Shown: positions 33,235-58,161 of the stretch, piece by piece
How positions within the stretch are numbered: the stretch's first letter is position 1
Layout: every line of letters starts with the position of its first letter
NCBI GenBank assembly: GCA_964023275.1
Contig: OZ029915.1
Coordinates: forward strand, 975,131-1,039,130
Direction of reading: 5' to 3'
Origin: Norana najaformis
Taxonomy: Eukaryota > Annelida > Clitellata > Crassiclitellata > Hormogastridae
DNA: 64,000 bases
Program-made: the position numbers and the translations under genes
Notes under the pieces: generated by a model
What the model saw: only the letters and a program-made list of their open reading frames with translations
Database searches by the model: none
What the model was told of the DNA's origin: nothing

Positions 33235-36200
33235 CTAGCGAATGTTTCCGTTCATTTCGACGAGTTTCTGTACAACGGTTTCGATGTTGTTGTCACACGT
33301 CTGGAGCAGTTGTTGGTTAAGCTGGCGATCGGCAAAGCCCATGTCGATCAGCTGATCCATCGGTGAACTCTGACCTTGTGCGACCGAGTCAGAGGATGGG
33401 GGCGTCGGAGGAGTCCACTGATGTGCTGGGGGAGACCAGGTTGGCTGTTGTGGAGGAGTCCAGGTACTTGCAGGCTGGGTCCACTGGTTCTGAGGTGGGG
33501 TCCAGTCAGAACGCGGTGGGATGTACTGTCGATAACAGACCAACAGAACAACAGGTCTGGGTTAATCACACGATCAGATACCCTGAAATCTCATTACAGT
33601 GCACAGCTATGGCTAATCTGAAGCTATCTAATTACTTCTACAGCTTCGTTATCGTAATGCAATCGATAGCCTCTAAGTCAAATCTTCAATCTGGGGCTAG
33701 CACGGTCCATACACGGGGACCTTAAATGATGTGAAGCCCATTCAAGCAGGCAGCAGTGGTAAAGGATTTCACCCCATAAATTCATAGAAAATGAGCAGTG
33801 TCAAGGCCACACGGTCGCTAGAGAAAAACGTCTACATTTACATTTAGTCAAAATCATAATCCACAGGAGAAGCCTGGTTGAAATCCAATGGGTCAGTGAA
33901 ACCAGAAGTCAGACAAAAGTTGGTAAGCGAGTTGAAACAGATGAGTCTTAAGTTTAGACCTGAATTACATTAAAGAACACACAGAACTGGGCAGTAAAAT
34001 GCAACATTTGAACCAGCCACCAAGAATGCATGAGAGATCTAGTTCATACAGCTCCAGCTCGGAATTTCTGTTCTTAATGACACTTAACACCATTTAAGTT
34101 AGCGCAGGAGGCGCCTTTGTGAGGCACTTAAAAGGCGCTATATCAAGTTTTTACATACATACATACATACCACAGGAGTTTCAACGTAACAGATGAACAT
34201 AGACAGACAACACTCCAAATCAGCCAAATATGTTTAGATTTACATTTATACACTACATACTTATTATTTTTGCATTTATTAAGCACCACTATCTAATGAC
34301 TAAGCAGCAATCGATGGTACTGAGCAACTGAGACTTGCTCAAGTTCCCTACAGCTCGAACCTGTGTGCTCTCCACATTACAAGCCAAAAAGGTGCTATGT
34401 AAATGCGTGCTACAAGACACTGCATTACACTGAAAACCAAGTGAATCAATGGCAAAGATTTCAAAGGAAAACAAAGAAACTTTCGTACAGAGTTTTTGTC
34501 TTGGAGTGTGTAGAAGACGTCTTTGGCTGTTTTTGCGACGAACGAAAACACAGTTGACATCAGCTTCAGTGTAGAAGCTTCGACTCCACTACATACAATA
34601 AATATTCATATTTAAAAAATACCTTTATAAACTGCAGCAAATAATACAGTAAACAGGCAATCGTTCAATTTCGAATCACAAAATTTCTGACCTTTTTAAC
34701 AATTTGGACCTGTTTTGTCTTCAACCGTCCTCGAGCCGAGGGTTGGCTGCACCACGGATAAATTTGTGCCATCTGCTTCTGTCCCTTGTCTCCAGTAATA
34801 ACTGATCAGACAATAATTCAAGCCACGACTTGGTGTTATCGATCCAAGTCATTCATCTTGGGTCTTCCTCGAGCCCGGGACCTAGGACTTGTGCCTTGGA
34901 TGACCTCTTTCTCTAAGCAGTCTCCACTCTTCCATAGCACACACCCAAAATTTGGACTACCAATGCCTTATTAGTTAAGCCACAACATAACAACATGTTA
35001 CCAAACTGTAACGCAAGTTTATCATCTCAATAACGTGCCTTATATTCAGATTTACTGACCTTGCGGGAAGAACAAGTACAGTATATAAATAAATACAAAT
35101 ATTTGCGAAATATGAATGTTTACAACAAATTGGTCAACATAAAACTGCATGCTTTTTCACCTGGCAAAGGTGGGCTCTTCAGCTTCAGCATGACCCTCTC
35201 TCTCATCTTCGTGTTCCGGCTCCTGATGGTTTTCCGCTGACTCTGTCTGTTGCTCTTCCGTCAACTCGTGAGCCTCAGGTGGCTCATTGTCCTGTTGCAC
35301 GTAGCGATCCGTCTCATTCTGATTCACGTCCACTTCAACGTTGCAGTTCTCATCTGCAACCAGAGCTACAAAGTCAAGCAGAATCAGTCAAGCATGACAG
35401 CCAGTTGGTAATGCATCCCAAAATTTCATCCAGCTTCTAATATAACCTCGTTACAATAGGGAAAGCCATTTGGTTTTGTTGATACAATGCCGGCAGACAG
35501 TGAAGTTAAGCTAAATTGAGCTGGGTTAATACTTCGATGGATGAACATCTTTGGTAGAGTATGCCACCTGATGCCCAGTAAGTCTTCCATCCTATAGTGG
35601 ACGGTAAATTCAGTATACGTGTACTAACACAAGTTGGGAAGTTACTAAGGTGTCCAGTCATTGGACAGCTGTGGTCAAGTTTGTGCCTCAGCAGAATGTT
35701 CCTTTGACCTCAGGACCATGCTTCCAAGGAGTTCTATAGAGGCGTGCCAAAGAATGTTACCTTTACCTTTATGCTTCTGAGGATTTTCTGCTCAGGTATG
35801 TAAACAAGAGCGTTACTTTTACCTTTATGCTTCCAAGGAGTTTCTTTAAAGGCAATCAAATGAGTATGTTGCCATTACCTATCTTATCTGATCTGGCTCA
35901 CAAAGCAATTAACGTTAGCAGGAGGTTGAAATGTACCTCTTTCTGGTTCTGCCTCGTCCTCCGGATCAGCTGGTTCCACAGCCAGTTGCGCAGGTTCCTT
36001 GTCTGAAGAACCAATTCCACTTTCATTCTCAGGTGCCAAAACAGAAGGCTCTGGTTCACCCTCTTCTCCTAAATCTAACAGAAGAGATGGTTGAGGTAAC
36101 ACACAGGTAAGACACCCTTTCACAGGTACTTAAAAGATGCCATTCAAATATTCAGACACATACATAAATATACAAACATACATAATTGCTTTGCAAGGCT

Positions 36201-39200
36201 GCCCAGGGAACCAACCCTTCCTGCCTATCAATTTTGTTTTGACTGAGCGCCTGTGAATAAGCTGGTTCCTGCAACTTATCTTACGTTGGGCACTGTAGAA
36301 ATCTCAAAATTACAATTACAAGCTTTTGGTCACTCGCTTACATACATCAGCACGAGAATATTGCACAGTGTCTTGCATTGGCCAATACCTTAGGAACAGT
36401 ATTCTTGTGAATGTTCCTTATAACTCTGCTCAAGTTAAATTTTCTTGTTATGTAAAGACACAACATCCCCCAGCCACGTTCACAGCACTTTTCAAAGGTT
36501 CTAAAATGCACTCTATAAAAGCCCAGATACACACATACATTATACATAAATACATACATCATACTTACATATATACATACATACATACATACACACATAC
36601 ATACATACATACATACATACATCATACATACACACATACATTATACATACATACATACATCATACATACATATATACATACATCATGCATACATACATCA
36701 TACATACATACATATATACATCATACATACTTAGATACTGACCTGACACGTCCTCCTCCTCCTCCAGCTGCGAGTTGTCGTGTTCAGGTGGTTCAGAGCC
36801 AAGAGAGCCAGTCGAAAAGCAACACGTGGGCGACAGGAGAGGCGCGCTTGTTAGGCAACTCGATGTTCTCAGTAATTCGTCAACAGACTTGAAAGAGCAA
36901 CTGCCTCTGGTGCCACCTGTCAAAGGATGAGAAAAGACAAGTTAAAGGAAAGGTAGAGGTAACACATTAGTCAACATGCTCCAAAATGTAAAGGTAAATG
37001 TAACAAACTTCCTTACATGACTGTATTCGTAACTCCTTGCATGCATAAATATAAAGGCAGCAAACTTCTTTACACTTGTTTACACACCTTTACAAAAAAT
37101 TCCTCAGAAGCAAAAATGTAAAGGTGAAAGACTTGTTTAAAATACGCCTCTATAGAAACTCCTCAGAAGCATAAAGGTGAAAGTAACATGCACGTTTACA
37201 CACACCTACAGAAACTCCTCAGAAGTGTGGTCCCATGGTTGAAGGATCATTCAGCTGAGGTACATAAAAGACCACAACAATCTAACAACAGTAAAGTTTC
37301 ATCTCCCGAAAAGCATTTATTCATAGTTTATAAAGGTACAGAGAGCATCTGCTTACAAGCCTCTACAGGCTGTAACGTATGACTGTAGTTAATTTTCTAT
37401 TGTCGCCTGAACTTATGTACGGCGCCCTTTTCTTCGGCCTCGGCCGTGTTACGGCGCTATATAAATTGTCTTATTATTATTATTATTATTAGAGAAAATC
37501 ACTATTTGCCCGAGGTGCAAATACAACCTCAAAACAACACGACAATTTTTGGACCTTGCAACTTTTTCCAGTAGGCCTAAGCAACAAAAACTTTGGATTA
37601 CATTACACCAATTGTGAAAATGTTACATCACTGACTGGATTTCTTGATGACGACCGTCGTTGATGCTTCTTTTCTTGGCGGCAGATTTGGATTGAAACAG
37701 TCGGGGACCGGAACAATGTAGAAATCGTCACTACAGTTGCTCGAATCACTGTCATCATCTTCGTCGATGTAGTCATAATCTAGACACAGGCAGAGAGTAT
37801 TTTTTTATTATTATTATGCATTTATTACGCACAAAAGGTCAGTAAGTCTGAATCTGAGGCCCAAAGCAATTGTGAATGAAGGACTTGCTCAAGGTCCCTA
37901 CACAGCAACCGTCAAAGAGGAGGCTCTAACCCTTACTCCCCTTTATAAGCCAAGCACTCTATCCAATCAGCCTCCGTGCCACACACAAATGTGACGTATG
38001 ATAGCTAAGCATGGATGATAAAAATGTCAAATGTCCATAAATGACAAATACCTACTCTGGTCATTATTTTATTATTATTATTACTGCATTTATTAGGTGC
38101 CACTATCTAGCAACTAAGTAAAATTCGACGCCAACTGTGCATCAAGGACTTTGCTCAAGGTCCCTACACAGTAACCATCTAAGGGGAGGCCTCAACCCAT
38201 ACTCTCCACGTTACAAGCCAAACTTCTATCCAGTTGGTTACCATGCCCCATAATGTAAAGATGGGCTCTGCATGTGTGTGGAAGTCTGCCAGTGGTGACT
38301 GGTTTAACTGAGAATTGTTCACTTATTGATGAACTTTGTCTTCACTGAACTTTAACACCACATCAAAGGTGAAAAATTTCCGTTCCATTCAGTCGTCTCA
38401 CCGTCTGTGGTCACGAGATTGGACATCTTCTTGTGAACGAGATCAGCCATCACAGCCATGTTTACAAAGTCAAGGTTGTCTGCAGTGGAGGAGGCATCTG
38501 TTGGTCCATCGCTCTGTGATGCCACGCCTGGCTCCGAAGCCTCCATGACCATTGGTGTGCGTGGCGGAGTATCGGCTGCAGAGGAAGAACAAGATAGACG
38601 TCACAGCAAAATGTCATCTGATCCCAAATTTAACCTGGCTTTAGGATTCAGCTTAATCAAATGCATTCATGTTATAACCTCTGGAATTCAATACCACTTC
38701 CAAGGTTGTTATGACGAGGCCTCCAAGCATACATTACAATTCTTCATAATAAATAGTCATGTTATTATCATTCTGCATTTACTATGCGCACATGGTCAGT
38801 AAATCTGAATCTGAGGCACAAACCAACTGTGATTGAAGGACTAGCTCAAAGTCCCTACACAGTAACCGGCTAAGGGGCGGCTTGAACCTGTGCCCTCTTC
38901 ATTACAAGCAGGGCACTCTATCCAATCAGCTACCGTCCCCCACTACACTGTGCAAAGGATCTGCACATCTGAGGATATTTAGCGCTGAGGATATTTAGCG
39001 CTGAGGATATTTAGCGCTGCGGATATTTAGAGATGTTCCTAGCTTAGATTAGATCAGTTATAGTGAGAGAGATTGCTTTGCATTCTCTGTTGAATCAGAC
39101 GAGACGACCAAGTTTCTTTTGGCTTACCGAGTGGAGTGTTTGAGGGTACAGTGAGGGAGGTTGTCTTGATTTCTCTGGGGTTAATCTCTGCACTGAGAAG

Positions 39201-42200
39201 ATCTTCAACCGTGAGGCGCTTGCCACTCCACATGTCCTGGAAAAGGACTTCCTCCTGATCCAATTCTCCTGCTGGGCAAGCCACCTTGCCATCTTGGGCA
39301 AGCTGTACAAAACACACATGGCAAATGGTAACATTTCGTAAGTACACAAGTACCGCCAAGAGTACTAAAGCAAGTTAGGAGGTTTAAGAGGCATCTTGTC
39401 TTTGGACTGCAGTGGTCATGTTCACACTCAGCCAATAATCCTTTGACCTCAGTACCATGCTTCATGGAGTTCCCATGGAGGCATGTAAGAATGGGTGTCA
39501 TACCAAGCCATTCTGAGATACAGCTCTCATAATAGTAATGCAATGTAACGTAATGTAATGTAATCGGAAATTTATAGAGCACCACTTCAAAATAGACTTC
39601 TCAAAGATGCTCCCAGCCCAACAGCCCAGAAGCACTGGAAAATAAGACGGTCTTCAAGCGCTTGCGGAAAAGAGGGGGAGAGAGACTAAGAAATTCCTGG
39701 CATAGGGCATTAGGTCAAGATTGACAAGAACTGACGTCCTCTTGTACAGAGGAAGCATGATGTGTGTTTTCTAACCAAAAGGGCTAAAAATCTGAGCTCA
39801 GTCGCACCTGGTCATTGCGAGTGGTTGGTTTGGAGGTCGATTCTGGTGAAACTGTGAAGACGAACTCCAGTGCCTGTCCGAAAAACTCTTTGCCATCATT
39901 TAGACGCCAGGTGCTGCAGTACGTGCCTGCAACAGAAAACGATACTATCTTTTCACGCGCTGGTCCACATCTACGGAATTCACTACCACCAGCTTTTAGG
40001 GATGCTTCTCCTTCTCTCATATGAATTTCACAAACAACTGAAGACATCTTTATCCAGCTACCCGCACTTTTAGGGTGAATTTATAAATTATCAAAAGATA
40101 AATATCTTATTAATAATGTATGTGCATGTCCCAGGAATGACATTTTGCAAACTAGCTCTGCATGGGATAGGCTAGTAATTTTCATGACACAGATTGTGAA
40201 GTGCATATATACCTTTGTCTTTTGGTGCAGTGGCTGTTACAGTAATTGACACCACTCCCTCTGGTGGCAGTCCGCTGAGGCAGGCCGGTTCTGTGACCAC
40301 CGAGTAACTAACGCTCAAGTCACTCTGAACAGCCAACACCTGAAACAGGCAATCACTCCCTCTAAGTAAGTCTTCAGATCTGTGGTGATGCTACAATGTG
40401 TATTTCTCATGGAAACCATTAAATCACATGAAAAGCACTTCATCTAATCTAATCAAATTTAATAACTTCTATAGCACAGCTAGAATAATGCACAAGGCAT
40501 CAATCGATGGCACTCCAATACCTGTCCATTATCTGATAACTTCCACGAGGTTAGTCCAAAGACCAAGAGATACAGCTCAACTAATTGGACAGTCACTTCT
40601 TCATTCACCCCTTCAATCACCCCTACAAATTAGGCAGAATCATTGAATCACAGCTGACCTTGACCTGTGAGGTCCACGCAGAGGCTCCCGTATTCTGCAT
40701 GACCCACTGCTTCACCAGCTTCGATCCCGAACGGATCGCGTCTCCATTATAGCTCACCTTATCAAACAGAACAGTCGCCTCCATAGGCCTGCAAACAAGA
40801 CACAAACAAGCAATTTCAGATCTAAATGCAGGAGTCTAGTGGTTAGCCAGCTCAACTGCAAATGCTCAGGTCAGCAGTTCAATTCCCAAAAGGGACAGAG
40901 AGAAATGAACTGCACACAACTGACTTCATCGTATCCTCTCCCCCTTCTCTCTCTGGTCTATTCGCAACCAGACTTAGTTCACAAGACATCTTTGAACAAC
41001 CCCCACTGACTTGACACAGCCCTCGTGAACAAGCAGGTGCCCTGTGCTTAGCTTTTAAGCAGCACTTTAGAAATTTCAAGTGTATGATAACGATTTAAAT
41101 GTGCTTGCATTAGCTAACTAATAGTAAAAGACTTCTACTGAGCATTTAGTGAACTCACTTTTCACACTTGTCCGAGTGAGTCTTCTCTTCATGGTCACAG
41201 GCCTTGGGCACCAGTTGCCCTCTGTCCATCGCCTGCTTCACCAACTCCCTATAGCACAAGAGATCAAAAGTTTCCCTTCAGCTACAGCACAACAAATTAT
41301 GGCACAAGCTTCCTATCAGTCAACCAACAAATAAACTCGTAAAGCTGCAGCCAGTAAGAAGCAAGTAAGAAGTAAGAAGAAGTAAGAAGCAAGTAAGAAG
41401 TAAGAAGAAGTAAGAAGCAAGTAAGAAGTAAGAAGAAGTAAGAAGTAAGTAAGAAGTAAGAAGCAAGTAAGAAGTAAGAAGAAGTAAGAAGCAAGTAAGA
41501 AGTAAGAAGTAAGAAGCAAGTAAGAAGTAAGAAGCAAGTAAGAAGTAAGAAGAAGTAAGAAGCAAGTAAGAAGTAAGAAGTAAGAAGAAGTAAGAAGCAA
41601 GTAAGAAGTAAGAAGAAGTAAGAAGTAAGAGGTGTTACACATCTTCCCTTGCCTCATGTTATTCAAATAAATCTCTCAAACTATCAGATATAAATAAAGT
41701 CCATAACAAATTCCCGCCAAGGGATAGAAATGTTTTTATAATACCCAACATTCACAGCTGGGATCTACTAATGAAGCCTAACCCAAGGCTGCCTCTCTGT
41801 CTTGTGGACTGACCTGGATACTGACCTGATTGCGGCTTGGCTTTGATGCACCATCGGTCAATGCCTTGTGCAGTAGACACCAGCACATTAGCAAATAACT
41901 GTTCATGTACAGTGCTCTTTCTTCGGACTCAGCCATACTACAGCACTCTATAAATCATCTTATTATCATTATCATTGTTGTCGTCGTCATCATCATCATT
42001 ATCATTATTACTATTATTAACCTGCAGCGGGTCGTCAGTTCATCCGGGTCTACACCACACCCAAGGATGTTCTTCATCAGCAGCGGCTCCAGGGTGGAGT
42101 ACTTGACCTGCGCCTGTTCTGCAGGGACGTTCAGCTTCAGCAGAATGTGGGTCGGGTCGTGAACTCCTCCCTTCGCCTCACACGCAGCGCACAAGTCAAA

Positions 42201-45200
42201 GTCCGGGCAGAACCTGCCACACGAAGGCAGTCACAATCTCCATTTATGCACGTATATATGTGTGCATGTATGAATGCATGTATATATGTATGTATGCGTG
42301 CATCTGTGTACGTATACGTATTTATGTATGTATAAATGTATGCATGTATCTATGTATGCATGTATGTATCTGTGTATGTATGTATGTATGTATGTAAGGT
42401 ATGTAAGACATTGTACGTTTGTGTGTGTGTGTATTCATGTATATATGTATGTATGTAAATAAATAAGTATCAAGGCATCTATGGTGCCTTTTGAGAACCT
42501 CTCAAAGATGTTGCATGCATGACTACCTAATCTAATCTAATCTAAAGACTTCTAAAATGCTGTTATACTACCCAAGGCATCAACTGATTGTCGCTTCAAG
42601 TCAAAATCGCAATCAAAATCATAATTCAGTAGGTCAGAGAAACCAGAAGCCAGGCTATGTGGGTAAATTTAAGTCTAACTGATCTAAATAGGAGTGACTT
42701 AAGAGAAAACAAAGAAAGGACACTGCAAGCAGACCAGCATGAAACGGTATATAAATTCAGAGACAGACTGGAAGGTCCAGATACAGGCAGATGACATGTA
42801 AGAGAAATTGCAATAGAGGTCCCTACTTACCCACACTTATAGCGAACTCCCTCAACTCTCTTGTCACAGATGTCACAAATGATGATGTACCTGCAACCTG
42901 GTAAAACAAGCAGACTGGGTAGGAGAGAAACGGACGGCAACACACAGACAAACGCACAGACAAACGCACAGACAAACGCACAGACAGACACACAGAAGGA
43001 AAGAAAATCACCAAGACAGTGACAGCAATCGAATCTAATGACTTCTACAGCGCCACTACTGTGATGCTCAATGCATCAGTCGATGATCACTTTGAGAGCT
43101 CGTAATCAAGATTCTTATATGTTGGAGTAGCCTGACTGATAAGTAAAGTAAAAGCTTCGACGTCCCCTAAGGAATGTAGGGAATGCATTCATTTCCTTCT
43201 CTTTAGGCCTCTGAGCCGGCAATGGAGGAATCCCAAGGTCCTGGACACGAATCCCAAGGTCCTGGACACAGGGCCAGTGCATCGTAGGACTTGACATTTA
43301 CTTCCAGCTTACGCCGGTACCAAATTATTATACTGCTTCGTGACAGAGGCACGCGTGTGCAAACAGCGAGATCAGCGTCAGTACATGGTCAAACCCACAA
43401 CCGCATGATCACTGACCAAACAACAGGTCAAAGCAAAATGGAGAAATAAAAATTAACATTATATTTAAATAGCTTGTGTGCACATATATTTTAAAAATGT
43501 AATCAGTACCAAGGACATGGAAGAAAATCCCAGTTAAGCTTTCACAAATATCATCAACATTGACATTCCAGTATCACTTAAAAACAAAGGCCCATCTTCT
43601 GAGGTGAGACTACGTAACCCACATCTGTGCATACACGTGTTATGTTTACTTTGCGCATACACGTGATATATTTACCTCGTCCGAGTGGATATGTATAGCA
43701 AGAAACAACTGGTAGTCCCAACAACTCTGGCTGAAATGGACAAAAAAGCATCCACAACTCATATCAAATACTTTAACTAATTCACAGAATAAACTTAGAA
43801 TAACTTACTTCTAAGGCAATACGCTAACCAGTATCTCAAATTAACAAGAAAATTAAATGAAAAAGTAGTAAATCACTAACTGGTAAACAGCCGTAGCTGG
43901 TAAACAAAACAACCAAGAGTAGTTTGAGCCTCTGCCATGTGAGATAATAAATTTCAGCTTCCACTAGCAGACGCAGTGCCATCAAAGCACAAATTTGCAT
44001 AGGTCATCCAGTGGGGCGGCCTTTCGGTATAAGCTGGCTAAGTGGACTTTGTGCAAGATCCCCGAACATGGTCTTCACGTACACTCATCTTGCTATTCAG
44101 ATTTCCTGACCGCATGTGCGTGGTAAGCACAATAAATTAGTAAAAATTAAAGCTTAACAAAATAAAATAGTACAACTACAGGGTAAATAAACCATTCATC
44201 AAAATGGACATTTCTTTAATTATATTCAGTTTTGCTGTGTTTTATAATTGTCCACTTTAGAAACTATTTATGTAGATGTTCAATGCATGTGCGCTTGACA
44301 GATTCAAATCAAGGCTACTTACTTATTTACTTAATTAAACAAACAGCCAATATCACATGCACTTAAGCCAAAACAGCCATTAACCCCAATACTAAATAAA
44401 ATTTATTTCTAATTTATTTTATTAATTTGATTACAAATATGAGTAAAAAGATCTCCCACTCACCTCTCTGTTTCACCAATGGCACAATCAGGCGATGAAA
44501 ACAAAATACAAAACCAAGTTAAAACAACAAAAGAATTTCTTCTACCAATCCTAACTGTAACCTCTAACCTGTGCTGATTAAGACTAACACACAGAATTTT
44601 ATTGTAATTCAACGAAACTGTAAAAAAATGTAATGTAACACAATTACATACAACATGGTGTAACATACTCTAATTGTATAACACAAACTGTACCTAAGGT
44701 CAAGAGGAGGTTTCTAATGACAACAAGCTTTCGTGGCACTCGAAGACGTCTTGGCCCATCTTTCTGCAATACGCTGGCTGGCTGGCATTCAACCTGATAT
44801 ATAAGTTGCTTGGCCTATCTTTGACTCTTCTCTGTATGCGCTCGGAAACGACTTTATTCGACCGTGATTTTGTGTTTTTACGTCAGCAGCATCTCTGAGA
44901 AAATTCTCTGAAGTTGTGTTATATAAATTTCCAATTTCAAATACAGTTACAACTTATGCTAACAACAAACAGAATAAAATCAAATGCGCTCCTTCGTCAT
45001 TTACTAACAGGTCGACAGTTCTTGGAATCCACTCCACGTTGACCAACTCATCCTCGGCTGACCCATAAACCAAATCGCAGTCGTTGACTTCCGACTTCTT
45101 CAACCCGATGACCCACTTGAGGCTGAAGAGGTTCTGAATCCGGTTGTTAGCGAACGTCCATTTCTGGCTGGTCTTGTTGAGATCACATGGATTGACGACC

Positions 45201-48157
45201 AGCCTGCCATCTAAAATGCCAAAGCTATGACTCAATGCACCTCACCGGTCCTGAGTTACCTCTTATCAAATGCCTTGAATTATAAAATAACTTTTCTTTT
45301 TTTACACATTTAAGCCTTCCTCCTTGTAACAACCTTCTAAGTTCTAACATTGAGTTGAAGACTGTTCCGAATCTGACCTTACCTGCCTATCAGTTTGGGC
45401 ACAGTAGCATATATTGGATAGAGTGCTCAGCTTGTAATGCGGACAGTGCGGGTTCGAACCTCTGAGATGGTTCCTGTGTAGGGACCTCAAGCAAGTCCTT
45501 CTCTCACACTTGCTCGGCGCCACTGATTGATGCTAAGGCATTAGTTAGTGGCACCAAATAAATGCAGAAATAATACTCAATTTTGTTTTTTTAAAGCACC
45601 TGCGAACAAGCTGGTTCGCCCAACCCAGCTTTCCTCAGGCACTGTGGAAATCTTGAGTTTACGATTATGCTGTTCCAGAAGAACCGTCCACTGCACAAGA
45701 AAGCATGATGTGTCCCAGTCGTTGAGTTACAGTAGTCCAAGCACATTAGCATAAAAGAATTGAAAAGATTTAAAGAGGCATCAAAGAATTAATTTCATCA
45801 TATGACGTCTGTTAAGTGACCTTGCATGACACAGTTAGCAAAAACAGGTAAAGCCAAGTCAAAAAAGGTAATGTAACAACTAAGTCAAACTAAATGACTG
45901 AAACCCATGACACTCTAATCTAACCCGACTTCTATAGCGCCGTGATCACAACGTACAAGGCATCAACTGAAGGTTGATTCAGGTGAAAATGTAATCAAAT
46001 ACTGTAACCATTGGAGAAGCCCAATCGAAATTCAACAGGTCATGAAAATGAGAAATCAAGCCGGACTTACCAACGACGTCAAGACAAAAATCGTTGAGGC
46101 ATGTCCTGATTGTGCAGGTCCGATTGTCTGTGTACCACAGCTGGTTCAGGATTCCTTCTCTCGGGTTCTTCCTGTGCCAGACAATCACCTGGGCTCCAGG
46201 GTGTGTTTGACCTCCCTCCACATCCAACACCATGTTCTCTGACCGTGAGTTCGCTATGAAACACACCTTCCGTTCCTCCCTAAAATCAAATGCAAACCAT
46301 GCACTGGAATACTGTAATGCTTTGGAAAGTAATGTAATACAGCACTACTGGGAGGCCACTTGGTTTTGTCAACATGACACTGGTAAGCATGAATCTAAGT
46401 AGATTTTACATTTTTCACCTTTGATCCGCCTCTGTGAAAAACCTAGTTCTCACGACTTAGCTTTCTTAGGATGCTGTAGAAATCTTGAGTTCATCATCAT
46501 TACCTTGTCTCACATCTACCGGTTATAACGAGTTTGGTTTACCTGTTCACAGCCACCTTTTCAGCTCCAATTTCCTTCTTCATTTTGCCACTTGTATCTC
46601 CACTTTCCTTTGAAGACTGTGAGCCTGGAATGGAAGTCCTTTCTTCGCAGCAGCCTCCGAAGCCTCTAGCCAGAATCTGCGGCTCTCCTGGAGAAGGCGG
46701 TTGATGCATGAATGAAGGATGTTCTCCTGTGAACAAGTCGAGGAATTGCACGTCGGCTGGATAAACAGCGATGTCTCGATCCAAATCAAAAGCGTCCGGC
46801 GGACAAGGACGACCGTCACATACTACTATCAACTTCAAAGTGTTGTTACACTTTCTGGCAACCTACAAATGTACCATCTTAATTTACCATATGCCATAGT
46901 ACATGGTAAATTATGCAATTATGTAATTAGTTTACCATGTACCATCTTTATTTACCATATACCATAGTACATACAGCATACTGTATGCCGTGTGCTGCCA
47001 GTAGCAAGAGTGATACGTAAATTGTGATATACAGGAGCCTCCTTAAAATGTGCTTCATTATCATACGAATACTGGTACCTTGAAGGCCTCCTCCAATTCC
47101 TCCTGGCTTTCAATTATCACCAAGTCGTCGTCATCATCCGAGTAAGATACCTTGATGCTCTCGTAATCAGAATAGACCTTCAACTGCGCATTAAAACAAC
47201 CAAAAACAATATATAACATAGACAGTACTAGTAAAATGCGCCAACTGCATACAATTCCAACAGCGCTGTGGGGGCACTTTAGCCAAATGAGTAAAGCGCT
47301 CAGCCTGTAATGCGGAGAGTACGGGTTCAAGCCCTGAGATGGTTACTCAGTGGTAAAAAGTACACTGACTGTACATTGTCGGTCAAAAGATCTGGCGAAG
47401 AAAGGGGGACTGGCCACCCACACTCACAGAACAATTAACTCTAACATTTCATACCCATGACTGCGTCTTTGATTCAACTAACTGACAGTTGACCTCGTTT
47501 GTCCTCTTCTACTTCTTCAAAAAAAGTCCTGAGAGGAATCAGTGAAGATAAACTCTAATCTTATCTACATCTGATCAAATTGTCTAAGTGCACCGTGAAG
47601 GCAGTAATCTTGTAAGCAGAGATAATCTTTGTTCCAAAAGTACGAAGCCATTTTCTCTTTAAACAACTGCATTTATTTAAAAGCTGCGATCTGTTTAATC
47701 GTATTCTCATTTTATCAAATAATCAAAACAGTCGTAACAATTACTAGAGTAATTTAATGTAAATCGTACGGAATTTCTCGGTGCCCTACAACAGCTGCGT
47801 CATACAACACCAACGCTTGGTCAAATCAAAACCACAAAATGCAAAAGTTTTCAACAATTTATAAAATCGCAAGCTTTTGTTACGACGATATGCTAATACT
47901 TATTTATCGTCTGATTATTAATTAGTTATAAGCGAGGGGGAAATCAGACAGTAACGATAAGTTTGAGGCCATTTTCTGCGGTCAATAAAATTTCCTTATC
48001 TGCGCAGACACAGATAATTCCCTACTTCGTTAGGATTAAATACCATTAATTCGAGATCTTCCCATGCAATATCGCCAGGAACAACTTGGACTTCGTTAGC
48101 AAAAATCGAGGACAGATCCTTGCTCTGAAAATCCACGTTGATGACAATATTTTCCAT
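33235..48157 (-). CDS. NBR1: NBR1 autophagy receptor with inserted ricin-type beta-trefoil
   Basis: Nineteen minus-strand exons join in phase to 1015 aa: 48157-48044, 47183-47079, 46862-46543, 46279-46071, 45210-45005, 43730-43676, 42897-42831, 42213-42022, 41248-41159, 40788-40659, 40339-40213, 39926-39808, 39302-39128, 38575-38402, 37779-37636, 36916-36743, 36068-35937, 35353-35161 and 33556-33235. Domains: PB1 (1-85; acidic YSDDDDDLVIIESQEELEEA), beta-trefoil (about 180-320), ZZ finger (345-385; CDIC, CGFC, CAAC, HDPTH, all ligands present), NBR1 Ig-like domain (455-565), LIR in an acidic context (near 710, DDFYIVPVPDCF), Trp-Pro-Pro repeats and a C-terminal UBA (970-1012; LIDMGFADRQLNQQLLQ). 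NBR1 polymerises through PB1, binds ubiquitin through UBA and ATG8 proteins through LIR to bring cargo to autophagosomes. Several exons are acidic spacers. The small exon 6 and the acceptor of exon 19 are the least certain joins. Confidence 0.92.
33683..34000 (+). repeat. Family A copy followed by family D copy
   Basis: Family A (33683-33848: GGCTAGCACGGTCCATACAC, AAAACGTCTACATTTACATT) is followed at once by family D (33855-34000: CACAGGAGAAGCCTGGTTGA, GTTGAAACAGATGAGTCTTA). They lie in the last NBR1 intron, antisense. Confidence 0.8.
34265..34400 (-). repeat. Family C SINE copy
   Basis: In reverse it carries GCTTAATAAATGCAAAAATA, then the TCAGTTGCTCAGTACCATCG and AGGGAACTTGAGCAAGTCTC stretches, in the order seen in the other copies. 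It has the same orientation as NBR1. Confidence 0.75.
34712..34930 (+). repeat. Family F copy
   Basis: GTCTTCAACCGTCCTCGAGC, GGCTGCACCACGGATAAATT, TGCCATCTGCTTCTGTCCCT and CAGTAATAACTGATCAGACA. A second copy lies at 61640-61805. The first part has a coding look, but no protein family is recognised. Confidence 0.7.
36185..36325 (-). repeat. Family B copy in NBR1 intron
   Basis: In reverse it gives GATTTCTACAGTGCCCAACG, GCAGGAACCAGCTTATTCAC and CAAAACAAAATTGATAGGCA. Confidence 0.8.
36530..36735 (+). repeat. (CATA)n microsatellite
   Basis: About 200 bp of ACATACATACAT with CATCATACATA interruptions, ending 8 bp before the donor of NBR1 exon 16 (on the minus strand it begins just inside the intron). 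Confidence 0.9.
37415..37490 (+). repeat. Family G tail with (ATT)n
   Basis: TGTACGGCGCCCTTTTCTTC, GGCCTCGGCCGTGTTACGGC and GCTATATAAATTGTC, then ATT repeats. This is the best preserved copy of the family. Confidence 0.8.
37800..38250 (-). repeat. Two tandem family C SINE copies
   Basis: Both copies (about 37800-37985 and 38060-38250) are in reverse orientation. Each shows GGGACCTTGAGCAAGTCCTT or a close variant, then TGCATTTATTA antisense tails next to ATT repeats. They lie in the intron between NBR1 exons 14 and 15, in the sense orientation of the gene. Confidence 0.8.
38750..38945 (-). repeat. Family C SINE copy
   Basis: In reverse it contains GACGGTAGCTGATTGGATAG, TGCCCTGCTTGTAATGAAGA and GGTTACTGTGTAGGGACTTT. 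It lies in the NBR1 intron 13, sense to the gene. Confidence 0.8.
38970..39032 (+). repeat. 16-bp tandem repeat (GAGGATATTTAGCGCT)
   Basis: Nearly four head-to-tail copies, the last one with GCGGATATTTAG. Confidence 0.85.
39932..40085 (+). mobile_element. Non-LTR retrotransposon C-terminal remnant in NBR1 intron
   Basis: The plus-strand frame TIFSRAGPHLRNSLPPAFR, then SYEFHKQLKTSLSSYPHF, resembles the end of LINE ORF2 proteins. It starts within a few bases of the NBR1 exon 12 acceptor and lies antisense to the gene. Confidence 0.55.
40440..40545 (+). repeat. Family D fragment
   Basis: AATAACTTCTATAGCACAGC, then CACAAGGCATCAATCGATGG and CACTCCAATACC, truncated. Confidence 0.65.
41345..41632 (+). 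repeat. AAGTAAGAAG/AAGCAAGTAAG minisatellite
   Basis: About 285 bp built from AAG, TAAG and CAAG words, with a higher-order block (GAAGCAAGTAAGAAGTAAGA, repeated). It lies in NBR1 intron 8; on the transcribed strand it is a pyrimidine-rich CTTACTTCTT run about 100-380 nt upstream of the exon 9 acceptor. The Leu/Ser/Tyr/Phe-rich frames across it are artefacts. Confidence 0.92.
41905..42020 (+). repeat. Family G tail with ATC/ATT microsatellite
   Basis: TGTACAGTGCTCTTTCTTCG, GACTCAGCCATACTACAGCA and CTCTATAAATCATC, then an ATT/GTC/ATC triplet run reaching the exon 8 donor of NBR1. Confidence 0.75.
42243..42680 (+). repeat. (TATG)n, family H tail and family D copy in tandem
   Basis: TATG/CATG repeats (42243-42470) run into GGCATCTATGGTGCCTTTTG and AACCTCTCAAAGATGTTGCA (family H). 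Then TAATCTAATCTAAAGACTTC and CAAGGCATCAACTGATTGTC open a family D copy that ends near 42680. Confidence 0.75.
43028..43430 (+). repeat. Family D fragment followed by family E copy
   Basis: D: AATGACTTCTACAGCGCCAC, ATGCATCAGTCGATGATCAC (43028-43130). E: AAAGCTTCGACGTCCCCTAA, TCTTTAGGCCTCTGAGCCGG and ACATTTACTTCCAGCTTACG. Within E, AATCCCAAGGTCCTGGACAC is duplicated in tandem near 43230. Confidence 0.8.
45355..45675. repeat. Family C SINE nested inside a family B copy
   Basis: Reverse-orientation B sequence (CTGACCTTACCTGCCTATCA, to about 45400) is interrupted by a forward C copy (about 45403-45585: GCGGGTTCGAACC, GGTTCCTGTGTAGGGACCTC, AAATAAATGCAGAAATAATA). B then resumes (TTTTGTTTTTTTAAAGCACC, GCACTGTGGAAATCTTGAGT). 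It lies in an NBR1 intron. Confidence 0.75.
45918..46045 (+). repeat. Family D copy ending beside NBR1 exon 4
   Basis: ACTTCTATAGCGCCGTGATC, CAAGGCATCAACTGAAGGTT and ATTGGAGAAGCCCAATCGAA, ending about 25 bp from the exon 4 donor. Confidence 0.75.
46440..46495 (-). repeat. Family B fragment
   Basis: In reverse it gives AACTCAAGATTTCTACAGCA, then TCCTAAGAAAGCTAAGTCGT. Confidence 0.6.
47275..47362 (+). repeat. Family C SINE head
   Basis: GGCACTTTAGCCAAATGAGT, AAAGCGCTCAGCCTGTAATG and GTACGGGTTCAAGCC carry the A and B boxes; the body is cut after GAGATGGTTACT. Confidence 0.7.
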
Positions 48158-50460: not shown

Positions 50461-50870
50461 TTAGACAGAAACCAAGCGTGTGAGGCAGCTACTTGTATGG
50501 TCAGGTTCAGTTTCAAGTGCATAACATATATATCTTAATGTAATTGTCACAATTTTTTCCCTTGTGTTTAAGCTAATTCCATAATCCTTACTTCAGTCGC
50601 TTCTCTTCATTTTGGCAATGATAAACCTGAATTTTTGGGCCTTACGGTTTTCTTTAGCGCAATAATTTAAGTAAAATCAAACGCTATACAAATCTACCAT
50701 TTACATGATACCTACATAGTCTTTTAATCACGTGAGGCGTCTGCGTGTTTATATTCTTCCGGTAGCCATTGGTGTATAGATTAGTAGAGTTCGTTGTGGA
50801 ATGATCATACGAAGTTTCATAAAATAGCAGCTATCTGTTAAATTTGTTATTGGAAAGGATTGTTTGAATC

Positions 50871-53800
50871 ATGACTCAGTTTCTGCCGCCTAATCTGTTG
50901 GCGCTGTTTGCTCCGCGGGAGCCTCTGCCGTATCTTCCTCCAGCTGTAAAATTACCACACGAGAAAGAATCGCAGCCATACTCGGGCCTGGCCAGTTTCG
51001 TGAACCAGTTCGAGGTAAAAGCAATCGATTTATGGTCATTGACATTAAATATGTATTTTAATTGCGCCAAGCGGCATGCGTTGCGTTTTGTATAACGGTC
51101 AAGTGTATGTGGCCGAAATTTATATTCTTGGTAACAGATAGTGTGGTGTTTTAAAGTTAAAATAAAAGTAATAAGGTGTGAAAACATTTTTAGATAAATT
51201 AACAAGGCATTTCGAAAACATTTTTCCACATAGGCGTGGTTGTGGTGTATAATTATTTATGTAAACGTGGGTAAATAGCTCATGTACTGTAAGCTTTCTT
51301 CACAGTTGCACATTCTTGAAATTTTGCATATAATATTGAGTCTTGAAACAATATGGCCACCCCATACTGCGAGAGAAATCATAGCACTGCAAGCTGCTGG
51401 AAGGATTCCCAAGAATGATTGACTCTTAAGTGGTACAAAAAACAACATGCACAGCACCATAAAAACTGTTTCGGAGTGTCAAATTACGTTTAACCGATTT
51501 CTTTACTTATTGATACTTACAGCAGTATTTTGAAAAAAAACTGTCTTACTCTGTAGTTTCTTAATTTATTGACACCAATGAAAATATATAAAAACTTTGC
51601 GGTAGTCAGTTACTTGCCAACTACTCACTTATGTTTCATTTCATTTTCATTTTGTGACAGTTTGTGCATTTTAAACTTAATGCTATGCTTTATGGAAAAT
51701 GTTTTTGCAAATGTTAAACATCACACATGCACAGACTGCTCTGTCAACTGTCTGTTGAATCGTGCAATTTCATTCCAGAATCCAAAAGATACCCCACCAC
51801 CAACAAGAGTAGAGACTCGAGAAGAAAAAAAGGAGAGAAAGGTATTTGTCAACAGCCTTTGTCGCTAGATTCATAATATAAGGACATCTTATGGCTGTCA
51901 AGGCCATGGACATCAATCTTTTCTGCCACTATTGTTTTTCTTTGTAGAATTAAACAATCTCTCTCTTGTTCTAGCTCCCTCCTGGGGAGTGATCAGCCAC
52001 ATGGATTCTTTCTGTCCACTTGTTTCTGTTTCCAGTGTCCTTTAATTTGTATAGTTTGAAGTCCTGATTCATCATATTCCTTTAGAATTAAACAATGAAA
52101 ACATCTAATGCTTTATTCCTTTGTTTTGTGATACTCGTGGCTTTAAAGCATCTCTGTTGGTTTTTGTTACCTAGCGAAAGGAACGGGCTGAACAGGTGGC
52201 CTACAAGTTGGAACAAGACTTGGCTCTGTGTTAGTATCTGAAGTATTTAGTATGTAAGGACCTCATTTTAATAGCATTATTACAAATACAGTGTCCGTCA
52301 TAATGTGGTTGCTTTTTTATATATATATGTATATATATGGGATATATACATATGCATATATGTATATATTGTGCAGTTGTTTTTTGACTAACCAATTCAG
52401 GAATAAATATATATATATAGATAGATATATATATACACGTACATAAATATATATATGTATATATTTAGTTTCTGTGAGCATCATTTCTCATTTTATGATT
52501 TTTGTCTTTCAGGGGATCCTGCCAATGATGTAAACATATACGGAGATCCTTACAAGACGCTGTTCGTGGCCAGGATTGTAAGTAAGACAACGGAGTTGGA
52601 TGTAAAGTTTATCTCTTGAGAGATTTATGCAGATTAGGTTGTTTTTGGAAGATGGTCCAGTTCGCAAGAAAGTGTTCCATTGCAGTACTTCCTTAAGTAC
52701 TTGTACTCATTCCTTCTTTCGTCTTTCTCCATTTCAACTGTTATCAGTAAGTCATGGTTGTTTGCATTTATTTCAGAATTATGACACAAGCGAATCCAAG
52801 CTACGAAGGGAGTTTGATGTGTACGGGCCTGTCAAGAAGGTATTATTATTATTATTATTACTACTGTTACTATTAATATTATTATTACTGTTAATATTAA
52901 TGTTGTTATTATTTCTACTGTTATTATTTTTCCAATTATTATTTTACTATTTGTATGATGTTCTTGATGTGGCTTTCAAAGATAAAGGTACAAGGAAGGC
53001 ATGTAAATTGCCATGTAATGTAATCAAGTTATTCAGATGCATCAGTGGATACAGATCTGTGCCAAACGAGAAAAGATGTGTTGTGCTGTCAATGAGTTAA
53101 GTTACACGCTTATGGAACAGAAAAATGCTTATATGTTATGTGTAAGGAAAAGAATTTTACAGTGGAAAAGAATGGTATTTCTCAATTGGAAAGATGCAGA
53201 ATGTTGTCAAAGGTCACCCTTGTTTCAAATTTTATGATGTTGCTTACATTACTGATTAGTAATATTGATAAAATTACTAATAATTGTATAATTATTATTA
53301 CTGTCCTCAGCCCCACCTCAGAGAACAGTTAGTTCCAGATGCCGTTTCTGTTCCTGAGGGATTATACATCAGGTAAAAACGATGACATCATTGCCTCCTG
53401 TGGCACATTTGTTCTGGCATTTCCTGATGATTTCTAGCTATTCAGGAACTTCTTGTAGAGTCATTTTTACCTTGGGGAAAATTTGCTTTTTGTTGCTTTT
53501 CAGTTTTGTTTTGAGATCTGTTGTATGGTACTGTTTCTGTGTTATTCTTAGGTGCATTTGATTATGAATCGAGTGTCTGGAAAGCCACGCGGCTATGCTT
53601 TTATTGAATTTGAGCACGAAAGAGATATGCACGGTCAGTCAAATCCTAGAGTTTTAATTGAGGGGGTGTGTGATAACTTAGGTTGCTTGTAGGCTTTTGT
53701 ACGACGAGGCTTAAACGAGGTAAGTGATTCTTGAATTTAATAAATGGTGTTACACTGAATTGTTTTCCTGATTAGAGTTTTTTCACTGTGTCTTTATGCT

Positions 53801-56800
53801 TTAAATGTACCTCCTACCGATTTCCAAGCTGTGTTTGTTGGTAAAAAAGGTGTTTTGTTATCAGTTGCAGTGGGCTAACAATTCAGGGGCAGTTTTTGTT
53901 TGAAATTTGTTGTTTAAAAGTACAAATAAAAATACTTGTCTTGTTTAGGCGAGTGATTTTGAATAGAGTTATAGTTTATGACGTAAGCTGAAAATTTATT
54001 GCTTGCTGTAGTTGGTATGAGGTACATTTGATTTTTGAAAGAATATGTAAAATTAATAGCTGAATTAGTATGTTAGTGTTTGCATAGGAAGTGCCTGGTG
54101 ATAACCTGTATGTCTCTGTAACACGTATGGAAACTCTGTTTACAAAAACCACATACAGTGGTAGTAATGTGATGTAAACGGTGTTTGAACTGTTTCGTGG
54201 CATAAATTTAAATTGTTTTAATGCACTTGGAGGAGAATAATGCCTGGCAACAGCGGACACTAGCTGCACGGTTAAGGAGCATAGTCACTGTTATCTAAAA
54301 AAAATAACATTTAATGCGGCCTGGATTTTTAATTAGTGTGTCTGAAAAACCCAAAATCCATTGCTGATGTCCGCTGTTTGTGAACATTACTGCTTTGAGC
54401 GTAGAGTAACTGAGTAGGAATTGCGCTTTGGAGTTGGTTGGCGACTGAACGTTTTAATTCGACTTTTCGTCTTTTTCTCCTTCAGACGTCCAGTGCAATA
54501 ATAGACGTGCTTCAGTCACTGTGTACACACACTGTCAAATCCTAATGTATTGTTGAGTCGAAAATAGGTTTGTATAGGACGAGTGGTAAGGCAGTTACGG
54601 TGTGTCTGTCTGGACAAAACGTAGGTGGCCCTCAAAATTTTACAAGGCTTATCCGAAGATCCACAGAGTATTTTTGCATTTATGATGTGCCTTGGTTGAT
54701 AGTAAAATTCGCTAAGCACATGTTGAGTAGAATTGACCATCAGCTGATGTCTTGGGCTTTATGATAATGGTGCTATAAAAGTCATTAAACTAGATTAATG
54801 CAAAGTCTATACTCTTGTCTGTCAGCACTGAATTAAGACATACCCTGGTTTTTGGGTCTTAGTATTTACCGTAAAATACGACCTTTTATGACTCCCACTT
54901 TTAAAAGTGATAGTACATCTTCCCAGTGTAGTTGGTCATTGCTGAGTGCTGTTTCTGTGTATATTCTACTGTTTGATTTTCCTGTCCGTTTGGTAATTTT
55001 GTGTAATTTTTGAATTAAGCCAATTGGTTTAATCCCAAGAGGACAATAAGTATCGTAAGGCATATTTTAGACAAATCCTCATTCATTCTGGTTACTTTTT
55101 TACTATTTACTTTTTGGTAAGGCAGGGCTACTGCCAATAGCAATCCCGTTGTCTAAAGTTGTGAGTTGAATGACAGATTTAGTCATAAAAATAATTCTAA
55201 GATGAAATCAATGCTGAGAAAAATCAAACTGGTATTATCTGCTTCCCAATGATGCTGACAGTTTAGGTAAAAACTCGACTTCCACAAAATGTTGCTGGTA
55301 ATTTGTCAAAAAAATGAGAAGGCGTTTAGTTAGAACTCATGAAAGCAGAAACTTTTGTTCTAAGTCATTCATCATGTGTATAATTCTTGTGTTACCAAGT
55401 GTTTGGTTTGGTCAGAGTAGTAAAATAAAGAATATAAAACCACAAAATTCAAAGAAATTTCATTTTCACATCTGAACCATTTAATATTCAAATTTGTTTT
55501 CATTTGGTTTAAATTCAGCATCATCATCTAGCGCCACCGTAGTTTTATCTGTCGAAAAGTTTCAATTTATTAAGTCATCTTTAAGTTTTCAAACATGGCA
55601 CCGGTTGCGTGTTGAAATGGTAAGCTCATGGTAACCGGTTGCCATGGTAATATTCGGGTAAGTCAGAGTCGACTGCCCTTCATGTGGCGAAGCCTTTGGC
55701 CAGCGACCTTTGACCCCTCGACCACGGAAAGCACCCTTCTTCGTTCGGCCTCGGCTTGTGCTTACTTGCAAACGCAGTAAGTTGGCATTTACTCAACTTA
55801 CGTAGACGACTAGACTAGGCTAAATCGGGGTAGGGTTCGGGCAAGTCTACCCATCTAGTTGGTGGAGCCATCTGAAATGATGTATTGGCGTGTTGGCTTC
55901 TAAGAATTGCATTTACTATACGGATTTCAATCTTTAGCAGACGTTATTTGTGATGTTGCATTTGCTTGTATATGGACGATTTGCCTAAGATATGACCTGC
56001 TTGCTTGAAATTGGCTGGCTAAGGTCATTCAGATCCTTTTTTAAGAACAGTTTTCTGCGTTGTACGAGGCTTTTGTTGGACTGGAGAGCCTTGTGATCAG
56101 ACCAGGTGAGTTAGGCAAGGTTAGAGACTTCAGGCAAATACGGAGATGTTGTTTTCTTTATTTTAGCGGCTTATAAACATGCAGATGGCAAGAAGATCGA
56201 TGGTCGACGCATTCTTGTTGATGTTGAACGTGGCAGGACAGTGAAAGGATGGAGACCAAGAAGACTTGGTGAGTACTAATCTTCAGTCTTCTTGTGCTAT
56301 ACACCACTGTGATGTAAGCATATACGTTTTTGCTGCTTGGTTTAAATCTGATGATTTCTTTGGTACCGTTTATCGTAAATCAGATGCATCAGAAAATGTT
56401 TTCTTGAGGGGAAACTACGGCCACAAAGTACTGATCGGCCAAAATCCAATGGTCAGGGAAACCAGAAGTCAGGCTACGGTGGATAAGCAAGTTGAAACAA
56501 ATGAGTTGTTAGTTTAGACCTTTCAACTTGGGGCATCATCACAGTTTGCCTGAAGAAAGTGCATTGTTTATTTCAGGTGGGGGCTTGGGAAACACCCGCA
56601 AAGGTGGAGCCGATGTGAACACGAAATATTCTGGCAGAGATGACTTTGTTGGAAGAGACAGGTAATGACTTATTAATTAATTAATTCACTGTGGTCAGGT
56701 CTTTTCTTACACTTTGAAAGTTGTGCATCGTTTGGGTTCAGTGCACATTCACTTTAGAGCAATTCTTACGCAATCTTGCATATTAGTTTCTCTTGAGGGA

Positions 56801-58161
56801 ACTTTTCGTGAACATGGTCATGTGTTGTTCTTTCCAGCCATGATTCCATGAGTGCTTTAAAGTCAGCTTGCTCAATAGTAGTTCCGAATTGTCAGCTTGT
56901 TAATTTCCAAAAGTGTTGCTGTGTGGTTCGGAATAACTTTGTGAATCTGAAGCTTAAAAATTCTAAGCTTGCTATGCTCTTCAGAGAAATGCATCACAGA
57001 GAAATCTGTGATTCCTCCTGTCATCATGATTCTGTCTGTCCTTGCTGGCTGATTGACAGTACACATGGATCGTGTAAAGTGAACTGCTTTCACCAAAATT
57101 AAATGTGTGACTGTGATGAAGGGCTGTTCCTGATGACCGCAAGTCACTTGAAGTCCATTCAATGCGTGACGAACGTCCTCCTCGAAGTCCCGATCGTTTC
57201 CGACGATCGACTAGAAGTCGTGAGCGAAGTCGAGAAAGAAGGCGCCCCAGGAGTCGGAGCCGCGATCGCAGGCGTCGGAGCCGCGAGCGTCGCCGTTCTC
57301 CGGAGCGGGAGATCAAGAAGGAACCAGTTGACGAGAACGAGGTTCCTCCACCCGAAGCTGGTGAGTGGGATGAACCAAAGTCACGTCGAGGTATGAAATT
57401 TTTATAGCGTTGGTCTTTCATTGTGAATCCCAGTAAGTTGTGTGAATATTTGTGACATCTAGTTTTCTGTGTTGTGGAATGATGTCCAATGAAATAGTTG
57501 TTGGGATTGCTGAGTAAAATAACATACCACTATTACCACTAGCGTAAAATTCTCAGTACTTTAACATTGTGGAGCATGGTAGCCAATTGGTTAGAGTGTT
57601 CAGCTTGTAACGCAGATAGTATGGGTTCAAGCCTTCTCCCCTTAAACGGTTACTATGAGGGACCTTCAGCGTTTCCTTCACTCACAATTGCTTTGCACCT
57701 CAGATTCAGTTTTAAATAACCTTGCATGCATAATAAATGGAAAATAATAATAACAATACTGCACTTGTAGATTTTTCTTGAAAGAATTGAATGCTATTAT
57801 TGGCGAAGGTAGTAAAGTCATCATGAATCATGTTTTTGTAGATGAAGGATCAAGGAAACGTCGTCGCAGTCGATCACGTGATCGCCGTCGCAGCCGATCA
57901 CGTGAACGCAAGCGTGGTCGTCGTTCGCGCAGCCGGGAGCGTCGTGGTAGCAAGCCTCGCGACCGTAATCGAGGAGAGAAAGATGCTGGAGAGGCACAGG
58001 GTGCGCAGGAGTCTAACGGCGGCTCGGGCGTTTTCATAAAACAAGAGGTAGACGATAAGGAGTACGAGGGTGCATACGATGCATCAGGCGATCAGTTCCA
58101 GAATTACGATAGCTCTTCGTTTCAGGGCGGCACGGAATATCCAAATTACGAGGATGCATGA
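50871..58161 (+). CDS. SNRNP70: U1 small nuclear ribonucleoprotein 70 kDa
   Basis: Ten exons join in phase to 415 aa: 50871-51014, 51779-51841, 52175-52229, 52513-52577, 52777-52839, 53552-53633, 56167-56268, 56577-56661, 57122-57390 and 57842-58161. U1-70K binds stem-loop I of U1 snRNA and helps define 5' splice sites. The N-terminus [20 protein letters not shown] is near-invariant in the family. The RRM (about 100-185) has RNP2 LFVARI and RNP1 RGYAFIEF. It is followed by [20 protein letters not shown] and [20 protein letters not shown], also highly conserved. The C-terminus has two Arg-Ser/Arg-Glu blocks and an acidic tail ending in YEDA. Length is close to the human protein (437 aa). The acceptor of exon 9 (GATGAAG at 57121) has a poor pyrimidine tract and is the least certain boundary. 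Intron 6 is by far the longest (2.5 kb). Confidence 0.97.
52315..52465. repeat. TATA-rich microsatellites in U1-70K intron 3
   Basis: Two ATATATAT/GTATATAT tracts flank 40 bp of ordinary sequence and end about 50 bp before the exon 4 acceptor. Confidence 0.8.
52840..52945 (+). repeat. (ATT)n microsatellite directly after the exon 5 donor
   Basis: The donor GTATTATTATT is itself the first unit of about 100 bp of ATT/ACT/GTT triplets in U1-70K intron 5. Confidence 0.8.
55519..55657 (+). other. SNRNP70: Possible cassette exon in U1-70K intron 6
   Basis: A good acceptor (GGTTTAAATTCAG) is followed by an open stretch in the phase left by exon 6. Two donors follow: ATG/GTAAGC at 55620 and CGG/GTAAGT at 55658. 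Ending at 55619 it would shift the frame of exon 7; ending at 55657 it would include an in-frame TAA. Either way inclusion would truncate the protein. No family similarity is seen. This is a hypothesis only. Confidence 0.3.
56440..56522 (+). repeat. Family D fragment
   Basis: AAATCCAATGGTCAGGGAAA, CCAGAAGTCAGGCTACGGTG and GTTGAAACAAATGAGTTGTT, in U1-70K intron 7. Confidence 0.7.
57570..57755 (+). repeat. Family C SINE copy in U1-70K intron 9
   Basis: A box ATGGTAGCCAATTGGTTAGA, B box GGGTTCAAGCC, body GGTTACTATGAGGGACCTTC, tail AATGGAAAATAATAATAAC. It ends about 85 bp before the exon 10 acceptor. Confidence 0.8.

Follow-up and report, generated by a model that had tools for sequence, protein, structure and literature searches.

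An NBR1 Selective-Autophagy Receptor Gene Encoding an R-Type Beta-Trefoil between PB1 and ZZ in the Annelid Norana najaformis

Vertebrate NBR1 carries PB1, ZZ, FW, LIR (LC3-interacting region), amphipathic-helix, and UBA elements in that order (PMC9582228; this and the other PMC articles are cited for the portions of their text that were accessible). The related receptor SQSTM1/p62 follows a PB1, ZZ, LIR, and UBA plan but lacks FW, the hallmark domain of NBR1. When vesicles are damaged in mammalian cells, glycans of the host itself are bound by galectin-8, which recruits the receptor NDP52 (PMC6272538), and ruptured lysosomes are recognized by galectins (PMC8523161). We analyzed a 64,000-nucleotide stretch of Norana najaformis DNA (GCA_964023275.1, contig OZ029915.1, positions 975,131 to 1,039,130; the window), which contains a gene that its sequence shows to be an animal NBR1 selective-autophagy receptor with PB1 followed by an R-type (ricin-B/EW29-like) beta-trefoil and then by ZZ.

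The window protein retains the order of vertebrate NBR1 and matches the PB1, FW, and UBA domains of human NBR1, but it differs in the trefoil, in the apparent loss of the fourth FW tryptophan, and in WTPP repeats before the UBA. Relative to p62, it has both the FW domain and the trefoil. With EW29, a 29-kDa galactose-binding R-type lectin of earthworms, the window trefoil shares sequence, predicted fold, and the alpha site, whereas the C-terminal half of EW29 uses both its alpha and its gamma site for binding, the window carries Gly in place of the gamma Asp, and the window trefoil lies inside an NBR1. The likeness to galectin-8 with NDP52 is confined to a proposed function, that of sensing from the cytosol the glycans of vesicles that have ruptured and passing them on to autophagy; galectin is a beta-sandwich that works through a separate receptor. 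The window gene encodes a known receptor with an apparently new layout, not a new kind of system. The statement in the original prediction that no described NBR1 of this layout was known to it holds for the accessible text of the open-licence PMC literature, in which no ricin-type or R-type lectin domain was found described in an NBR1; automatic domain databases may list the layout unremarked. The word lectin is absent from the accessible parts of three NBR1 papers, among them PMC9582228 and PMC9233695, and the corresponding parts of PMC6272538 on galectin-8 and NDP52 do not mention NBR1.

The NBR1 gene and its beta-trefoil

The gene was modeled as 20 exons on the minus strand (48157-33235) coding for 1044 amino acids (aa), with a frame open from ATG to stop and GT-AG borders in 19 of 19 introns; exon borders were placed by hand to suit splice signals and frame. 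All exons listed are on the minus strand.

Exon 1, 48044..48157, -: start codon and PB1 (PB1 E 3.9e-9; human NBR1 PB1 structure 2g4s, 8.4e-10)
Exon 2, 47079..47183, -: PB1
Exon 3, 46543..46862, -: end of PB1 (match to aa 87), then linker
Exon 4, 46071..46279, -: trefoil alpha repeat and start of beta repeat; NQLW; alpha-site D199, E201, W214, K217, N225, Q226
Exon 5, 45005..45210, -: remainder of beta repeat, with SQKW, and a degenerate gamma repeat (G285 replacing Asp; VEW)
Exon 6, 43676..43730, -: short linker of ~18 aa, with a counterpart of like length in P0001
Exon 7, 42831..42897, -: ZZ finger (ZZ E 8.5e-8)
Exon 8, 42022..42213, -: ZZ finger, then linker
Exon 9, 41159..41248, -: linker
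Exon 10, 40659..40788, -: FW/NBR1 domain (N_BRCA1_IG E 1.3e-14, aa 468-558)
Exon 11, 40213..40339, -: FW domain
Exon 12, 39808..39926, -: end of FW domain
Exon 13, 39128..39302, -: gene model
Exon 14, 38402..38575, -: gene model
Exon 15, 37636..37779, -: LIR-type motif, aa 712-724
Exon 16, 36743..36916, -: gene model
Exon 17, 35937..36074, -: gene model
Exon 18, 35161..35365, -: acidic linker
Exon 19, 34489..34588, -: amphipathic-helix (juxta-UBA) segment
Exon 20, 33235..33525, -: WTPP repeats, UBA, stop codon

Coordinates, AG..GT borders, and codon phases (phase 2 at the join of exons 3 and 4, phase 1 at that of exons 4 and 5, and phase 0 at that of exons 5 and 6, each matching on both sides) bore out that exons 4 and 5 follow the PB1 exons and precede the ZZ exons on the same strand. 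The original prediction had given 48157-47079 for the PB1 exons; the order stood, with two refinements: the PB1 match (aa 22-87) enters exon 3, which starts at aa 74, and exon 6 lies between trefoil and ZZ. The 5' end of the gene looks complete because P0001, a close relative introduced below, begins at the same Met and because a gene on the plus strand (50870-58161) lies head to head with NBR1; by eye this neighbor resembles SNRNP70 (U1-70K). Dropping exon 4, exons 4-5, or exons 4-6 was computed to shift the frame, and dropping exons 2-5, 3-5, 4-7, 4-8, or 5-6 keeps it at the cost of part of PB1, ZZ, or half the trefoil, so that a clean trefoil-free NBR1 is not expected from exon skipping alone.

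Exons 4 and 5 together code for the trefoil (aa 180-318). With the whole protein, the Pfam family Ricin_B_lectin matched aa 191-277 at 41.7 bits against a cutoff of 29, and the segment alone scored 45 bits. Both Q-x-W motifs attributed to these exons were located, NQLW at aa 225-228 and SQKW from aa 264, with VEW in the third repeat, and the segment has the three repeats of an R-type beta-trefoil. Exon 4 with its intron flanks matched RicinB_lectin_2 at 29.3 bits (cutoff 25.6) and Ricin_B_lectin at 28.3, just under cutoff; exon 5 with flanks had no Pfam match up to E 1. A profile of the four other trefoils found among relatives matched window aa 182-316 at 186.6 bits in a leave-one-out search, and because this match covers both exons, exon 5 belongs to the trefoil domain. 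Trp 228 and Trp 310 are present in 5/5 trefoils and Trp 267 in 4/5 (Phe in P0011).

The best solved-structure match of the window trefoil was EW29 (5.7e-15), which also ranked top for the trefoils excised from P0003 (1.6e-13) and P0002 (1.2e-12) and was matched by a five-trefoil profile at 7.5e-24. The joined exon 4-5 segment scored 58.6 bits against the EW29 fragment; the exon 4 part, which accounts for most of the signal, scored 43.0 and the exon 5 part by itself 6.4. A chance match was rejected, since 200 shuffles gave at most 8.1 bits. Structures were predicted for P0001 and P0003 with 4 and 5 sequences, respectively. The P0003 model, which contains the 12 strands of a trefoil (mean predicted local distance difference test score [pLDDT] 43.6, predicted template modeling score [pTM] 0.27, trefoil block means 48-76), supports a beta-trefoil fold for this relative.

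The remaining domains identify the protein as NBR1. In the Pfam search of the conceptual protein, which had been proposed as a check, PB1 (aa 22-87; 36.8 bits, cutoff 23.6), Ricin_B_lectin, ZZ (aa 343-373; 32.3, cutoff 21.4), and the FW domain N_BRCA1_IG (aa 468-558; 55.1, cutoff 28) exceeded their cutoffs, and UBA_NBR1_C (aa 1005-1037; 21.5, cutoff 27) did not. The window PB1 alone matched three structure chains at E <=0.1, two named NBR1 and one named KIAA0049, which we take to be NBR1. A profile of a five-row alignment (A1) matched human NBR1 FW (4ole, 4e-31), NBR1 PB1 (4.3e-16 to 7.7e-16), p62 ZZ (9.4e-15), and human NBR1 UBA (2mgw, 1.1e-8), and the last of these matches identifies an NBR1 UBA although the Pfam score is below cutoff. 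An FYIV motif preceded by acidic residues (aa 712-724) is a putative ATG8-binding site; F714, V717, P718, and P720-N724 are invariant in 5/5 A1 rows, and the motif Val is Ile in P0011. The juxta-UBA segment (aa 915-948) is identical to P0001 at 34/34 positions and has a hydrophobic moment of 0.49, against a protein maximum of 0.55 in the UBA.

Two of the domains depart from expectation. The FW domain has three of the four tryptophans of NBR1 (positions 481, 491, and 545): exon 12 encodes LEF in the window and P0001 where P0002, P0003, P0004, and P0011 have IWC with the fourth Trp, and the FW score is 55.1 bits in the window and 49.6 in P0001, versus 85.4-88.5 in those four proteins. This pattern suggests that the FW domain is diverging in the window/P0001 lineage, in our view no reason to exclude the protein from the NBR1 family. 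The PB1 domain has no Lys or Arg among its first 12 residues, and metazoan NBR1 PB1 has lost its basic surface, is monomeric, and binds p62 (PMC9582228). For both of these reasons PB1-driven self-polymerization, one of the functions ascribed to the chain by the original prediction, is doubtful.

Relatives and distribution of the layout

Protein searches, which scored at least 7994, at least 7995, and 278 candidates, returned at least 7, at least 9, and 2 matches, with 11 different proteins (P0001 to P0011) among the matches listed, which are not a census of animals. Among these 11, four (P0001, P0002, P0003, and P0011) share the window's order of PB1, trefoil, ZZ, and FW. P0001, on a contig of 4057 nucleotides, is 71% identical to window NBR1 over 100% of its length. 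The best ricin-type Pfam scores were 33.3 for P0001 (cutoff 29) and 32 for P0002 (cutoff 25.6). The layout PB1, R-type trefoil, ZZ, FW, LIR motif, UBA was thus correctly described and is common to four relatives, and the proposed search for a trefoil between PB1 and ZZ in other NBR1 proteins found it in these four. Because these relatives share it, the layout is by these alignments neither a joining error nor private to the window gene.

In the other 7 of the 11 proteins among the matches listed no trefoil was found, the five-trefoil profile scoring at most 2.8 bits in any run. One of these, P0004, is a long NBR1 with PB1, ZZ, FW, and an LIR-type motif, and since it lacks the trefoil the layout is, judged from these proteins, not universal in NBR1; the layout is no one-off, then, and no general feature either. 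A hidden trefoil in P0004 was looked for and not found (the five-row profile gave -1.2 bits, and two of five leave-one-out runs listed P0004, at -0.7 and -0.1). After the trefoil, P0003 and P0011 carry a PSW or PPW segment that by eye resembles one in P0004, and for this reason the trefoil has the appearance of an added module inserted behind PB1. A tree of eight rows, from which P0005, P0007, P0009, and P0010 were left out, supported window plus P0001 at 100/100, P0003 plus P0011 at 93/96, and the six long NBR1 rows versus P0006 and P0008 at 100/99. A search for relatives in viral_contigs and genome_contigs gave 40, 18, and 52 stretches that fit a pattern, and tblastn confirmed none of them.

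Identity between window and P0001 was 94% in PB1, 83% in ZZ, 76% in trefoil exon 4, 74% in exon 5, and 67% in FW; in the linkers it was 73% (89-182), 70% (567-690), 74% (743-914), 38% (316-339), and 46% (387-457). The trefoils of the three distant relatives are 35-39% identical to that of the window, and window FW is 30% identical to that of P0003 and 28% to that of P0002. The trefoil therefore appears to be conserved about as well as FW, and identity alone does not prove constraint.

Sugar-binding sites and the role of the trefoil

An aromatic residue and an Asn take part in the sugar site of R-type lectins. We compared the sites of five trefoils, those of the window, P0001, P0002, P0003, and P0011. 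In the alpha repeat, D199, W214, K217, N225, Q226, and W228 occupy site positions of EW29 and what we take to be those of ricin, so that one site (D199, W214, N225) combines Asp, aromatic, and Asn; D199, K217, N225, Q226, and W228 are invariant in 5/5 trefoils, and position 214 is Trp in 4/5. In the beta repeat, D247 is kept in 5/5, and the window residue at the corresponding position is not aromatic. The C-terminal half of EW29 (EW29Ch) binds sugar via its alpha and gamma sites, and D230G, among six changes of an engineered variant, lowered gamma binding (PMC12598746). By chain numbering and trefoil alignment, EW29 D230 falls on the Asp within VLD of the gamma repeat; it corresponds to G285 in the window and to Gly in 5/5 trefoils. 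The alpha site thus looks intact and the gamma site dead. Because the alpha site is kept, the gamma Asp is Gly, and the beta repeat lacks its aromatic, we predict the window trefoil to be a one-site lectin, and the proposed glycan binding by this NBR1 fits the intact alpha site.

With a probability of roughly 55%, the trefoil would act as a one-site Gal/GalNAc-type lectin in the cytosol and equip NBR1, which would recruit ATG8 through its LIR, with a cargo-recognition arm for glycans of ruptured vesicles; we infer the sugar binding, the cytosolic setting, and the use in autophagy. This arm would stand beside the UBA, which reads ubiquitin, and the FW and ZZ domains. When an endosome, lysosome, or phagosome ruptures, the trefoil may bind the glycans exposed to the cytosol while the LIR brings in ATG8 and the amphipathic helix grips the membrane. 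Since the PB1 of metazoan NBR1 is a monomer that binds p62, multivalency would come from clustering through p62 or a coiled coil instead of the protein's own PB1. A single chain may in this way perform work divided in mammals between galectin-8 and NDP52, and if so it would be a single-chain counterpart of that relay, reading sugars, ubiquitin, and membrane as well as recruiting ATG8. More tentatively, and with less than even odds, there may be an animal lineage in which NBR1 serves as a cytosolic glycan sensor for broken membranes or microbes, a trait of an early or widespread NBR1 of animals that vertebrates would have lost.

Several observations weigh against this reading. The P0001 model has no folded trefoil (pLDDT block means 22-35, residues 171-320; mean 40.1, pTM 0.28), and neither its trefoil nor its ZZ folds confidently. 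P0003 and P0011 score 28.3 and 23.7 bits, both below the ricin-type cutoff of 29, and P0004 has no trefoil at all. The tree fixes no place for P0002 and P0004 among the six long NBR1 rows, and either gain or loss of the trefoil may lie behind its distribution. Identity to P0001 does not appear to single out the trefoil, with three of the five linkers at 70-74%, and toward P0003 and P0002 exon 4 is 43% and 45% identical but exon 5 only 25% and 29%. Within the alpha site, Tyr replaces the stacking Trp in P0001, and position 201 is Glu in 3/5 trefoils, Gln in P0003, and Cys in P0002. A single sugar site would probably be weak unless clustered, with PB1 self-polymerization improbable.

The trefoil could be real yet no longer a lectin; it might instead bind proteins or lipids or act as a scaffold, recognizing a protein cargo or holding PB1 and ZZ in place. 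Of its three sugar sites, two appear dead (Gly at the gamma position in 5/5, and a window beta repeat lacking the matching aromatic), a related trefoil occurs in animal fibroblast growth factors (PMC6272538), and NBR1 FW and ZZ bind protein cargo, with cargo binding shifting among domains (PMC9233695). An unused site should drift, however, and the alpha-site D, K, N, and Q plus an aromatic are kept in 5/5 trefoils even though the distant ones have diverged so far, albeit in a sample of only five; we consider a non-lectin role somewhat unlikely. Distinctly less likely still is that the trefoil recognizes glycans on the surface of microbes, not those of host endomembranes, and makes NBR1 a direct receptor for cytosolic bacteria. 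Mammalian NBR1 does go to bacteria (PMC9582228), but the closest functional analogue, galectin-8, recognizes glycans of the host (PMC6272538), and both readings would have identical anatomy, so that sequence cannot tell them apart.

That exons 4 and 5 come from another gene through an error of modeling or assembly is very improbable. The gene model is known from genomic DNA alone, exon 5 by itself matches no family, and exon 4 contains an in-frame Met (aa 196), yet the codon phases agree and P0001 has the same order on its own contig, as do P0002, P0003, and P0011. A wrong joining of these exons was rejected as very unlikely given the phases, relatives, and leave-one-out scores. As for the lectin role that we favor, the occurrence of a lectin domain in more than one NBR1 suggests that a single chain, with no galectin involved, can couple the recognition of sugars to autophagy; the trefoil also offers a ready construct and mutants (D199 and N225) for testing.

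Other features of the window

Elsewhere in the window, a weak LEM-domain match lies at 1380-1847 on the minus strand (22 bits, cutoff 24). A 964-aa open frame on the plus strand (19302-22196) contains a 36-nucleotide tandem repeat (20374-20854); it had no Pfam match up to E 0.01, and by eye it is RSBN1-like. A dispersed repeat with the motif TGTGTAGGGACCTTGAGCAA occurs at 12607, 34335, 37885, 38151, 38842, and 45475 (six copies at <=3 mismatches, 0 expected). This dispersed repeat is perhaps a tRNA-derived short interspersed element. Searches of the window with Rfam and for tRNAs gave no matches, and a repeat of the window had none in viral_contigs or genome_contigs. From 62180 on, a minisatellite with a 37-bp step spans 42 overlapping registers; among 30 of these, the majority resemble the reference at 94-99%. 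Finally, an intronless 626-aa open stretch on the minus strand (13106-14983) encodes Bicaudal-D (Pfam BicD, 1e-94).
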